Shown here: positions 52,701 through 61,700 of the stretch, piece after piece
Layout of the letters: each line of letters opens with the position of its first letter
Numbering within the stretch: the first letter of the stretch is position 1
Assembly: GCA_009760855.2 (NCBI GenBank)
Contig: WPIO01000060.1
Span: 1,231,501-1,295,500 of the forward strand
Source of the DNA: Cristatella mucedo
Taxonomy: Eukaryota; Bryozoa; Phylactolaemata; Cristatellidae
DNA length: 64,000 nucleotides
Direction of reading: 5' to 3'
The notes under the pieces: generated by a model
Told to the model about the DNA's origin: nothing
Database searches by the model: none
What the model saw: the letters and a program-made list of their open reading frames with translations, nothing else
Translations under genes and position numbers: made by a program

Positions 52701-55700
52701 CTCTGGAAATGGTTTGACGAATTACCACAATCCACTGCAATCCAATACAATCTACTCGAATCAGGCTAACGTCGACCAGACATAAGTATTGCCGAGCTTT
52801 AATTTTACACTGATATTGTTGTACAGGCTAGAATTTATCTGACCATAAAATTTCATGTTGCTGTGCACGCACCCACTTATTCACATGATGTTTGGCACAG
52901 GACGCATGTAACACAATTTACTTCAATATATCACAATCCATCGCAATCCATACTAGTTCATGTCAAACAAACCAAAAATCGGCTGCACCAGCTCCAAATC
53001 GTTTGGAATATCAAACTGTGCTACACGTAAGATTGATCCAGAGAATTTCGCTTGAAACCGGTCAAGCGTTCTCACGAAGTCCACTGAAATAACATCGAAG
53101 TGGCCCAGGCCAATACTGAAATCCACGACAATGCACCGCAATCCGATGCATTACACCACGCAACGAATGAAATCATGTTTGAAAAGATCCTTTTTTGATT
53201 GCATATGATAGCAAACTCTGCGAAAACTGCACTTACAAAATTTGCTCTCATTGGCACGGCCGTTCTCGTGCAATGGCCTGCAATCGACTCAGTAGCACTG
53301 GCCAGTACTGCACTCCACTTCAGTTCACCAAATCAACCGAATAAAAAATCGAAATAGATTGCGCTAAGCTGCAGTTTTTATTGCACATTAAAGTGAACCG
53401 TGTTGTCTAGACAACCAAGTAAATAAAAAAAATTCGCATCCTCACACTATGGCAATGGGCGGCTATCGTCAGAAAAGACCTGGAAAACTAGCACAATCCA
53501 CTACATTCCACTGCAAATCATCCTCAAATAGAAATCGCGAAGCTCTAATTTGACATTGCATTAGGACTAAACTCAGATCAAAGTCCACACACGAACTTTC
53601 GCTCCATTGTGCACACGTAGTCTTATGCAATGAATTGCAATCGACTGCAACGGCCCGGTCCCATACACCAGTCTGCTTCAATCCAATCGAACCCACTGCA
53701 ATCTGCCGCACAGCGACCAGGCTTCGTATACTAGAAGCTCTAATTATGATTGCAAGTTGCTCTACTCTTCGGTTTTGCGTACTCGTATAACTTCACGGTT
53801 AATGCCTTGGAATTCTGCCGCAAGGAACTGCAATCGGTTGCAACTGCCGGGGCCAGTAGTCAATCTACTGCAACCCACGGCAAAATGACCAGAATACGTA
53901 CACTTTTAAGCTCTAATAGTGGTTGCACGTTGCTCTAATTTTTGGTTATTGTGTCATCCCACAATTTCACTGCAATCACCTCGACCATTCGGCAGCAATG
54001 CACTGCAATTGACTGCAATGGCTTGGGCCAATACCTTAATAATCATAATAATAATAATGCACTTGATAAATCCCCTTCAGAGAACTCAATCTCTCTCTAG
54101 GTGCTTTACATTTGCTGCAAAGGGAAATGCAATTAAATGGTGAGTAATATCGTGCTTGGCAAACAACATGAATGCCATGGCTCGGGGTGACATGCACAGG
54201 GTCAGCATGCAAATGTGGTTAGTGGCAGCATGCACAGTGTCAGCACAGATAAGCACATGAAGGGCGAATCACAGGGACCCACCAAATGCTGTCATAAATA
54301 GGTGTTTTTAAGATCTTTTTAAATGTGGTAGGTCACGGGATGTTCTGACGCAGGTCGGGAGGGAGTTCCAGGCTTTGGGAGCATACAGAACTATATGCAC
54401 GGTCTCCATAGGATTTTAGGTTTGTACGATGTATTTCTAGACTGTTGGATTCCAAAAAGCAGGTGGTACGATGCTTGGCCTGATGGGGGAGTATATCTGA
54501 GAGATAGGCTGGAGCCAAAGAATGAAGTGACCTAAAAGCTAGCAACAAAACCTTGAAGTCAATCTGTTGCTTGACTGGCAGCCAGTGCAGTTCGGCGAGA
54601 AGTGGTGCAATGTGGCAACTGCGATGCTCACGACAGACAAGCCTAGCTGCGGAGTTTTGCACTAGCTGCAATTGCCTGATTGCACATGCTGGTAATCTAC
54701 AGCAATCTAAGAGAAAAAGCCCTAAAATCGACTCCGCAATCTTCCAGTTGTTAATGCATATTAAAAAAGCACACTGGTTAAAGTCAACCACATCATTTTA
54801 AGCAGTTGCGCATGTATAATCTTTGGCAATGCATGGCAATCTACGGCAATGGCTCGGCTCACGGCAGCAACAAACTACAATCCGTGGCAAGTCCACCCTA
54901 CATTAGCTGCACGAAGTGCTGATTGTCATCGCATTCCACATTTATCTGTGCTAAAAGTGAAACTCTAGGACTTTCAAGCTATTGTACACATTATTCGTCA
55001 ACGATACAGGGCAATCGACACCAATGGCAGGGACCAATACTACATTGCGTGGCAAATTGATGAGAAATTGGCTACACCAAGCTACAATTCTCATTCCACG
55101 TGACATCTTACTGCGTGCACACATATTTTCAATCCTTTCAATCGGCTCTGAACGTTCAATCTTGGGCAATTCATTGCAATCGACAGCAATGACCCGAGCA
55201 AATACGGAAATCCATTACGATATATCGCAAATCACTAAGAACTGACTGGGCCAAGATCAAATATATCTTACCTGTCACAGTCCACTGTGTTGGATGTGCA
55301 ACCAAATCTTTTCAACTAACCGTGTGCGTACAATCGCGAGTAGTCAATGGCAATCGACAGCAATATCCTTGGCAAATACCCTAATTCCCGCAAAGTAAAG
55401 AGAAATAGCCAGTGCGAAGCCCTAATTGTCATTACATATAACATTCAGCTTCGTCCAAAGTAAAAACATGGAATTTTCAAGATGCTAAGCCGGCTAACTG
55501 TCAGCAATGCACGGCAATCTACAGCAATGGTAGGGGCCGATGGGCCATTCCGTGAAAAATTGACAAGATTGGCTGCAATAAACTGCAGCTCTCATTCCAC
55601 AAACATGTAACTGTACGAACGCATAATTTTCACTTATTGTGCGCGGTCAATCGAAGGCAATGCACGGCAATCGATGGAAATAGACGGCAATGGCCCGGGG

Positions 55701-58700: not shown

Positions 58701-61700
58701 GCAGTGAATGGAGGCAGATTGGTGTATGGGACTGGGCCGTTGCAGTCGATTGCAATTCATTGCATGAAACCGCGTGTGCACAATGGAGCGAAATTTTGAG
58801 GGTTCTCTTTGAACTGAGCTTAGTCTTATAGGCAATCTCAATTAGAGCTTCGCAAGGGTAGTTTTCCAGGTCATTTCAGACGATTGCTGCTTATCGCCAC
58901 AGTGGGATATTGCATACTTTTTTTTTTATTTTGCCTGGTTTTGCACACCACGGTTTACTTTGATATGCAATAAAAATGGAGCTCGGCGTAATCTATTTCA
59001 ATTTTTATGCTGCGGGCTCGGTGGATTGAAGTGGATTGTGTAATTGGATAGGGCTACTGCAGTCGATTGCACTGCATTGCACGAGAATGGCCGGGCCAAT
59101 GCAAGTACATTTTTTAAGTGTAATTGTCGCAGAGTACTCGGTCAAATGCAATCAAATAAGGAGCTTTTCGAACAGGATTTCCTTCGTTGCATGATGGCAG
59201 TGGATTACGATGGATTGCCGTGGATTTCACCAATGGCCTGGGCCACTGCGATGTTGTTTCAGTAGACTTCTTGAGAGAGCATGAGCGCTATCGCGAGAAA
59301 TTTTCTAGGTTCATTGTACGGGCTGCGTAGTTTGACATTCAACAGTTTTAGGAGCTATGGGTAGCTGATTTTTCGTGGATTTGATGAGAATTAGAATGGA
59401 TTGGAAGTGCGAGTGAGAACAGCGACGTGAAATTTGGTGGACACATCAAACGTGCACTACAATATTAGTGCAAAATTTGAGCTCGGCAACGCTGCTGTCT
59501 GGTCAATGCTAGCATAATTCCAGTGGATTGTGGTAGTTCATCGAACCTGTAAGCCACCACTGGTCAATGAATCAAGCACCAACGGCCAGTGCTGGCAGGA
59601 GCTGGCTGGCAGGTGCCCTGGAAGGGATTTGTGGTAGCAGTCTGGCCTGCCTGATTACTATCATTTACCAAATAGGTGCCTTTGCTGGGGTCGGAAGCTG
59701 AGCGAAGAGTGGAAGAAACCGAGGCGGCTTGAGTGAAAGTGTCCCTGAAAACACCAAGGGGGCAGTGGCATCCAGTCGCGGTCTACCGACCGAGGTGGCA
59801 GGTCGCTGACCAAAATTGCTAAAGGTGTCAAAGACGAAAAAAGAAAATGTTGCCAACATTGCAGGCTACTTAGGAGCAGCAGGGTCCTCCGGATGGGCTG
59901 TAGATGGCCCAGACGCCTCAGTTGCTGCAAACATGGTGTCGTCGGCTGTGGCTGACGAAATATGCCCTAGGGTGGCAACTTGGAATCTAGCCGTCAGGCC
60001 CAGAGTCCTCGCCAAAAGAGTGCAAATGATGCACGAAATGTATTCTAAATTTTCATGGACTAGAAAAATTGGGACTGTCTTACCTAGGAATTGGATGGGA
60101 AAAACCGATCCTTGTGAACGAAGGCGGCTGGCAGAGAAAATTAGGGTATATTATATAGCTAATGCCCGTGACAAATCACGGGAACTTAGGTGTTGCGTTA
60201 CAAAGTTACCATTACAATTAGGTGTATATTGACATAGTGGAAAATATGCCTATATGGTTAGTCCGGGAGGAATCCACCATACGACCTGGTTGTGAATGCA
60301 TGTTTTTTGACGAAAGTCTCTTTATATTTTTAACTTGTAATAGGTGACGCGTGTGCTGAGTTATATCACACGATGCTTCTTGGCTTCAACTATAGTCTTT
60401 TTCTATTGGAGAGTTTGTTTTAAGCACGTTATTCATTGAATTTTGGTGGTTTGGCACTTAATGACTTCCTACGTTTATCTTGTCATTGTTTCCGTTAGCT
60501 ATGCATACTTTGTGCTAGAGTCCCTTGTTTTGTTCCCTGTTCATTTCAGTAAAACTTACCTGGCTGTGCCAGTCAAGAAACTTTAGAAAACTGCAACTTT
60601 GCTTCGCAAGACAGTACTGATTGTCCTCATACAAGTCTGGTTAGCCAGCACCACCGAGGGCTAATCTTAAATTATTATTTACTAGAGAAAAAAGTGTATA
60701 GAGGCATAGTATAGACGTTTTTCAAAGCTATTTTTAATAATTATTTTAGGAAAAACGCACATCTCCTCTTGTAAAATTGTTTATATTAATTTTTTAGTGA
60801 CTGGAAATGGATCAGCATTTAATTATGTGCAAAAGAATTACAAACTTGCAAACCAACCTTAAATTTATATTACCTACACAACAAGCCCAAAGTGAAAAAC
60901 TGCAGGCCAATTTTAGCACTAAACTCTTATCGCTTAATTACAGACAGTGGCAGCAAGGTGTAGTCAAATTCCACGGCAAATTACCTTCCCTATTGGAGAT
61001 GTTTCAAGGCACTCACCATGTATGCACTGCCTTACATTTTTGGAGCTGTTCTAGAAACATCAGAAAGTTCACAATGTCATTGTAATGTCAATAACCGTGA
61101 GATTGTAACTAAATAACTAACAAAACTAAACTATTATCACCTCAATTTAATGCAGTGCATTAGTCTCTACATTCAAAAACGCTTCCTCTAGTTAACTAGT
61201 GACCTCGTTCTGAAGTTAACTAGTGACGTCGTCCAAATCAAAGAATACGGCTAGTCCTCTAAACTGTATTCCCAATTTCCTAATTCTGCGATGCTTATAT
61301 CTGCTGCTGCTGCCATCCAACCTAACGTCATAAATGTGTTAGTAGTCTCAGGGCATGTCCTAGAACCCTTCAAGAAGGCTGTTATCAGGCCAATACTTAA
61401 GAAAGCAACACTAGACCAAGACAACTTAAGCAACTTCCGCCTAGTCTCCATTCTATCGTTCCTATCTAAGACACTGGAACGAGTCGTGGTAGAACCGTTG
61501 AACTCATATATTAAAACTTCAAACCTTGCTAGTAAGTTCCAGTCTAGCTATAGAGCTTAAATATGAGTGACACCCCCATAATTGGCATTGCTTCTGGTGT
61601 ATAACGACCTACTAATAAATGAAGATTTAGGTGTATTATCTCTGACACAATGGATCACCAAAACCTTCTTGGTGGCCCCTCACCTCACCTGGGCATCACT

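Follow-up and report, generated by a model that had tools for sequence, protein, structure and literature searches.

The described transposon nearest in plan to the element reported here is Tetris of Drosophila virilis (PMC4079207). Our subject is a palindrome in the genome of the bryozoan Cristatella mucedo, a putative foldback element of 6839 bp located at 52710..59548, a nested piece of a long interspersed nuclear element (LINE) included, within a stretch of 64,000 nucleotides (assembly GCA_009760855.2, contig WPIO01000060.1, positions 1,231,501 to 1,295,500), hereafter called the window. Tetris resembles it in being described as apparently non-autonomous, with no transposase, in having inverted repeats with long tandem units (about 220 bp), part of the unit being common to the outer domain, and in its 8-10-bp duplications; the duplication length, together with the habit of other foldback elements, led to its assignment to Mutator (PMC4079207). 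Conversely, its inverted repeats are reported to reach at most 1.7 kb with three or four units, which also built satellite arrays (PMC4079207), whereas the Cristatella family displays 2.75-kb arms with 16 diverged units of ~175 bp, helical phasing, and no satellite in the regions read.

Other described systems share part of this plan. FB of Drosophila melanogaster has inverted, internally repetitive arms, a middle region and a 9-bp duplication, but its arms are described as blocks of five 27-31-bp repeats near consensus (PMC7642927), in contrast to the 175-bp units found here, which are 57% alike and contain 10-bp sub-repeats. The Mutator-like elements (MULEs) of the Tm1/Phantom type likewise carry foldback-like inverted repeats and 9-bp duplications, and Tm1 joins such arms to a Phantom (FLYWCH-MULE) transposase; its arms, however, are reported with 1-9 units of about 14 bp, and a putatively autonomous Tm1 is known (PMC3169594). 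In Cristatella, an open frame of this class lies at a locus (L047) unlinked to the foldback family. The inverted repeats of Galileo are likewise long and enclose tandem repeats, of which some provide extra transposase sites, its THAP domain binding near the end and in the internal repeats (PMC3688188), and it differs by its P-type transposase and by longer repeats, up to four per arm as reported (PMC3573991). In this work, we show that the palindrome of the window belongs, as an old copy, to a dispersed, non-autonomous foldback DNA transposon family; no coding sequence was recognized in the copies read.

A dispersed family of foldback elements

A preliminary description of the window had recognized two inverted arms around a spacer of ~0.7 kb, and self-BLAST confirms this layout, with a centre of 739 bp (56171..56909) and arms that are mostly 75-79% identical. 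On the minus strand, 56910-58361 aligned with 56170-54694 (79.0% identity, 1492 columns; inner arm), 58359-59403 with 54040-52944 (74.8%, 1105 columns), and 59405-59547 with 52878-52711 (66.1%, 168 columns; outermost arm). The right arm is uninterrupted (56910..59547, minus strand); the left arm (plus strand) consists of an outer part (52711..54040) and an inner part (54699..56170) separated by the nested LINE piece (about 54041..54698, minus strand), which has no counterpart in the right arm and was therefore inserted later than the palindrome was formed. This LINE piece was found again in many of the loci read; its open frame 54333-54791 looks by eye like the C-terminal portion of the frame 7382-8629, which encodes a reverse transcriptase, and gave no match in Pfam. 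By comparison of copy ends, the element boundary was placed 1 base outward of GGTTCG; the left terminus (52710..52743, plus strand) begins TGGTTTGACGAATTACCACAATCCACTG in the window, compared with GGGTTCGACGAATTACCGCAATCC at the start of each family arm, and the right terminus (59515..59548, minus strand) begins AGGTTCGATGAACTACCACAATCCACTGG. A pattern scan allowing up to 6 substitutions located left-arm unit cores of the GCAATCGACGGCAATGGCCC type, with nested 10-bp CAAT repeats, in 53600..56170 (plus strand), for example at 53637, 53830, 54005, 54836, 55011, 55176, 55350, 55514, 55677, 55843, 55992 and 56153. The centre holds one core copy and is common to other copies, the window centre being 80.8% identical to that of L018 over 743 columns and 75.8% to that of L033 over 745; by eye, its consensus contains no frame longer than about 80 amino acids. 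Also observed in the centre consensus were CATCGCACTTTTTAAAGTGCGATG, which is short and hairpin-like, and several occurrences of a motif resembling ACCTGCAAACYGAAAGTTC. As the centre occurs in both orientations, an inversion relative to the arms was considered, and this idea was dropped because a palindrome inserted in reverse orientation looks identical.

The family was traced in the 572-Mb assembly (688 contigs) by its 19-bp core, which occurs 2851 times (1346 + 1505) with up to 2 mismatches, against 0 + 1 occurrences of the same pattern read backwards, so that its abundance is not due to chance. From 100 exact core matches listed, the first 30 were followed in listing order, independently of structure, and corresponded to 27 regions (L009-L035). 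Each of the 27 aligns colinearly with the arm consensus (best high-scoring segment pair, 639-3793 bits). Together with the window, these regions contain 106 core matches, of which 103 lie within arm sequence. From the core density in the regions read, arm sequence is estimated at about 2.1 Mb of the genome, probably a lower bound, since the places were selected for a good core. Many copies are shorter than the full plan, and many show one end only in the stretch read; both ends are present in nine copies, including that of the window, two of the nine having been pieced together with a second stretch. The full plan comprises a ~2.75-kb arm, a 0.74-kb centre and an inverted 2.75-kb arm, and the two-ended copies have its inverted layout in common. 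Outside the genome, the exact 19-mer core had no match in viral contigs and nine single matches in prokaryote contigs, five of them in Pseudomonas; being single, these matches indicate that the core is not a repeat there.

Two origins had been left side by side in that description, a non-autonomous foldback transposon and an inverted satellite island. The former is borne out by the arm order and ends common to 27 other regions and by the 9-bp duplications at four of the nine two-ended copies described below. The latter, in common with a host palindromic segmental duplication or an assembly artefact, would account for the satellite-like unit length and for the absence of a flanking duplication at the window copy; however, the ends, arm order and centre are the same at many places, target duplications exist, and core matches sit almost throughout in colinear arm sequence. 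Satellite island and host duplication are thus contradicted by the dispersed colinear copies, and no head-to-tail array free of the mobile element was found in any of the 27 regions, which were picked by core from 30 of 100 places, so that arrays elsewhere may have been missed. Furthermore, the arms are 21-34% diverged, too much for an assembly fold-over, and explanations of this kind can hardly be maintained. The foldback assignment is made on structure: long repetitive inverted repeats constitute most of the element, and dispersed copies share common ends.

Regarding its age, the divergence of the window arms (75-79% identity) makes this copy look old; the identity between opposite arms, likewise from self-BLAST, is 94.7% in L009 (1387 columns), 93.6% in L013 (497), 81.7% in L010 (2138) and 80.8% in L011 (499). 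Since long copies share the unit order and two-ended copies share the inverted plan, both tandem growth and inversion predate the spread of the family.

Ends, target duplications and the probable mobilizing enzyme

The copies share a sharp end, GGGTTCGACGAATTACC. Across 36 end-like places, which include a few internal look-alikes, the 300 bp inside matched in 570 of 630 pairs, compared with 21 of 630 for the 600 bp outside, some of these being trivially from the same locus. The end motif was matched with 4 mismatches or fewer by 28 ends; its own conservation among them is partly by choice, because the motif selected them. Base -1, which precedes GGTTCG, is a G in 19 of these ends, an A in 5, a T in 4 and a C in none, whereas at positions -2 to -12 the commonest base reaches 12 of 28 at most.

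With the element starting 1 base outside GGTTCG, the flanking 9-mers agree in one register at 7/9 positions in L009 and L010b, and at 8/9 in L013 and L023, while cross-pairing of flanks as a control gave no case in 72 with at least 7 matches (maximum, 6). This register was picked after free-offset trials (k = 7, 8, 9; seven copies), followed by fixed-register tests, and is supported by the base composition at -1; the right end of L009 was set at 5397 (1 mismatch) rather than at the end-like place 5223 (5 mismatches). At 75% agreement, lengths of 5-7 and 10-12 bp fitted no copy, and 8 bp fitted one. Galileo generates a duplication of 7 bp. In the shared register, that length fits none of the nine two-ended copies, compared with four for a length of 9. 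The L010 region contains two family copies 1.1 kb apart, at 457-5464 and 6611-9641 (with L046), and the 9-bp duplication occurs at the second only.

On the basis of this duplication length, the family is probably moved by a Mutator enzyme. In the mechanism that we propose, the element would be excised and inserted by a Mutator-superfamily (MULE) transposase that acts in trans, cuts at the GGG ends and is probably a FLYWCH-MULE of the 'Phantom' type. Insertion generates a 9-bp target duplication. A search of the genome yielded 59 MULE-domain matches above the Pfam cut-off, the best of which, L047 (G000:C188:4368400-4371600), contains an open FLYWCH-MULE transposase frame of 453 amino acids at 806-2164 on the minus strand (FLYWCH, E 1.5e-8; MULE, E 2.5e-14). 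The frame is flanked by its own pair of short inverted repeats (84% over 122 bp), which are internally repetitive, with GGACAAAATGTCCC-like repeats, and a TTTCAGxGTGACA repeat was noticed just outside both of them.

Several observations count against mobilization by such an enzyme. In five of the nine two-ended copies, including that of the window, no 9-bp duplication is present in register: no target duplication was found at L010a, L011, L018 or the window copy, and L030 displays an 8-bp duplication in a shifted position (7/8 matching). The L023 count requires a 1-bp shift of the left boundary (an apparent insertion), the proportion being otherwise three of nine. Loss through recombination between copies could account for the absent duplications, an explanation proposed for a Tm1 copy (PMC3169594). 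No transposase, of the MULE type or otherwise, was seen in the nine two-ended copies among frames of at least 70 amino acids outside arm and centre, an absence judged by eye rather than by a family scan; for the window copy, the preliminary description was thus correct in reporting neither a transposase nor a clear target duplication. Pfam found nothing in two window frames. Arm and centre cover 98-100% of five two-ended copies, 93% of L018 (176 bp unexplained) and 90% of the window copy (LINE); the 9-bp-duplication copy L023 is 67% covered, with a 1.54-kb insert at element coordinates 872-2411 that is part LINE, and L013 55%, with a 2.85-kb insert holding reverse-transcriptase-like frames by eye. 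L047 shares with the foldback family only a 20-bp chance-level match (E 0.007, L018 centre), its sequence lacking the arms and having unrelated ends, and no autonomous copy of the family was found among the copies sampled or at this single MULE locus that was read. The 59 MULE places all lie, by eye, more than 10 kb from any listed core match, a weak test because 100 of the 2851 cores were listed.

The enzyme of another superfamily (e.g., P, hAT or Merlin) could instead move this foldback transposon, in the way that a P-type transposase moves Galileo. This would agree with the lack of a MULE gene seen inside the family, and foldback structures are reported to have arisen in several superfamilies (PMC3169594, PMC4079207). 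Against it, the 9-bp duplication is the length reported for FB (PMC7642927) and described as common for MULE enzymes (PMC3169594), and MULE domains, the only ones searched, do occur in the genome; we therefore consider another superfamily improbable. With these results taken together, a dispersed foldback family moved in trans by a MULE enzyme, whose arms are phased arrays of secondary sites, is the explanation that we regard as probable as a whole.

Unit structure and helical phase of the arms

A consensus of 2757 bp was built from 15 long arms. Their divergence from it is 6-17% at non-CpG and 11-26% at CpG sites, and two arms are on average 19% different. Its autocorrelation reaches 0.363 at 175 bp and 0.349 at 10 bp (all-lag mean, 0.255; s.d., 0.015), so the unit of ~167 bp given earlier is replaced by a period of 175 bp, with core-to-core steps of 149-195 bp. 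The estimate of about 16 units per arm agrees with the 16 counted in the consensus (14 by core motif, and 2 outer ones cut by hand). Their mean pairwise identity is 57% (range, 38-79%) and, as had been noted, opposite arms are more alike than units, with 75-79% in the window. The conserved part of each unit comprises ~70 bp of CAAT boxes at 10-bp steps, followed by GGCCCGGGCC and then by ACCGCAATCC boxes.

A ACCGCAATCC pair also constitutes the end-proximal box, from base 14 inward, and is the predicted site of the enzyme. This box recurs along the consensus, 13-33 matching 909-929 at 95%, 13-42 matching 189-218 at 93%, and 13-35 matching both 375-397 and 549-571 at 91%; repetition of the terminal box in outer units is as expected from the inward multiplication of an end-binding site. 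The arm would then be an array of secondary sites, and these extra sites may make binding more specific or tighter, a role already proposed in Galileo. Alternatively, the arms could serve chromatin or small-RNA roles, as a nucleosome array or the source of a silencing hairpin transcript, rather than transposase binding. A unit of this length and a period near 10.3 bp in WW (A/T) dinucleotides are typical of nucleosomal DNA, and a 2.7-kb inverted repeat could yield a double-stranded transcript; in contrast, the outer-unit box is the box of the terminus, which fits enzyme sites such as those described in Galileo (PMC3688188), and the alternative appears rather unlikely.

The arms are phased with the DNA helix. 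The spectrum of WW dinucleotides in the consensus has its top peak, for periods of 3-50 bp, at 10.28 bp, with a power of 13.35 against a median of 0.16; the maximum was 3.9 in 200 dinucleotide surrogates, and 38 other 2.7-kb tiles of the window did not exceed 2.55 between 9.8 and 10.8 bp. Among near-full single arms, 8/9 peak at 10.20-10.38 bp, and the right arm of the window copy displays a period of 10.20 bp (power 5.56; median, 0.18). Consensus core steps of 174, 185, 175, 195, 175, 174, 175, 165, 174, 166, 154, 174 and 149 bp correspond to about 17, 18, 17, 19, 17, 17, 17, 16, 17, 16, 15 and 17 turns of 10.28 bp, with one exception, so that 12 of 13 spacings are near whole multiples of that value. 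Before consensus position 2552, 27 of 29 blocks of 88 bp fall within -15 to 113 degrees. The register thus spans most of a 2.5 kb arm despite the 57% identity of its units, and a helical register kept at this divergence suggests that the geometry of the arm is constrained. Units are mostly ~17 turns apart, which would turn the putative sites towards the same side of the helix and could serve a multimeric transposase, rotationally positioned nucleosomes, or both. Our best guess is an array in which the sites of a transposase, or of nucleosomes, are phased, and the data hint at proteins that recognize a single side of the arm.

Other observations go against this interpretation of the arms. The terminal box is good in outer units only (0-2 mismatches in 20 at 14, 190, 376, 550 and 910), those of inner units being poorer (4-6 in 20). 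The innermost core, with its step of 149 bp, is out of phase; the blocks at 89 and 617 are also out of phase (amplitudes 1.8 and 4.7), and the final two blocks of the arm are shifted. L014 peaks at 10.58 bp, its strongest period between 3 and 50 bp being 41.27, and the left outer arm of the window copy alone peaks at 11.48 bp. The phase concentration of 0.96 at 10.28 bp, compared with 0.05 at 10.0 bp and with no more than 0.12 at 10.0, 10.2, 10.4 and 10.5 bp, was calculated for 13 of the 14 cores, the innermost being omitted, and for a period taken from the same data. Unit pairs hold ~10 gaps of many sizes, rough counts from alignments of ~57% identity. Across copies, conservation at non-CpG sites is 0.911 in cores and 0.899 in spacers; being hardly above the spacers, the cores of existing copies seem to decay neutrally, and any selection would have acted on source elements.

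The phasing could also be a by-product of the slippage of 10-bp repeats combined with duplication of a 175-bp unit, without selection for phase. This would agree with the nested 10-bp repeats, with the 31 CAAT pairs exactly 10 bp apart in the consensus, with several unit lengths that differ by 10 or 20 bp, and with exact 10-bp gaps in the unit alignment. However, slippage alone would give a period of 10.0 rather than 10.28 bp, as the above concentrations discriminate, and CAAT pairs peak at 31, 41 and 51 bp as well; in spite of the diverged units and their gaps, when 12 units are compared in pairs, their net lengths differ in 66/66 cases by a multiple of ten to within 2 bp; the peak at this period persists in the sequence that lies outside the 70-bp cores (4.5, against a shuffled maximum of 3.4 in 200); and random trimming of units by 0-9 bp left the power below that observed in 500/500 trials. 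Selection for helical register is hence the simpler reading, not the sole one, and the by-product explanation, although possible, is somewhat doubtful. We tentatively propose, as a plausible reading, that the arms are a helically locked scaffold, in which selection on active source elements would have held diverged units at whole turns of 10.28 bp over ~2.5 kb, aligning the transposase, or nucleosomes presenting its sites, on one face and making the arms zippable.

Other features of the window and implications for foldback arms

The rest of the window is eukaryotic in kind, with an intron-like gene structure and LINEs by eye. Exon-like frames at 6542-6934 (plus strand) and 33191-33592 (minus strand) resemble by eye the nucleotide-binding domains of ATP-binding cassette (ABC) transporters of the ABCC4/MRP4 type; they lie in opposite orientation and are perhaps a related gene pair. 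LINE reverse-transcriptase fragments, by eye of one family, were observed at 3756-4976, 7382-8629, 39317-39888 (minus strand) and 25629-26072 (plus strand). In a protein search a LINE frame matched reverse transcriptases, the named ones from fish and others from metagenomes; across 56% of the frame 7382-8629, the identity with a JGI metagenome protein (P0002) is 94%. Long AG, CA and AT microsatellites occupy 22337-22984, 27457-27966 and 35853-36166. An Rfam search over the window at gathering scores gave no matches.

The purpose of long, repetitive foldback arms is unsettled, extra transposase sites being one proposal (PMC3688188). In a limited literature search of titles and abstract openings, we found no paper linking foldback arms with helical phasing, and the descriptions of Tetris, FB and Tm1 consulted here make no mention of a helical register; the phasing looks new. 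If the arms of the Cristatella family are indeed a helically locked scaffold, helical phase would be a design rule of foldback arms.

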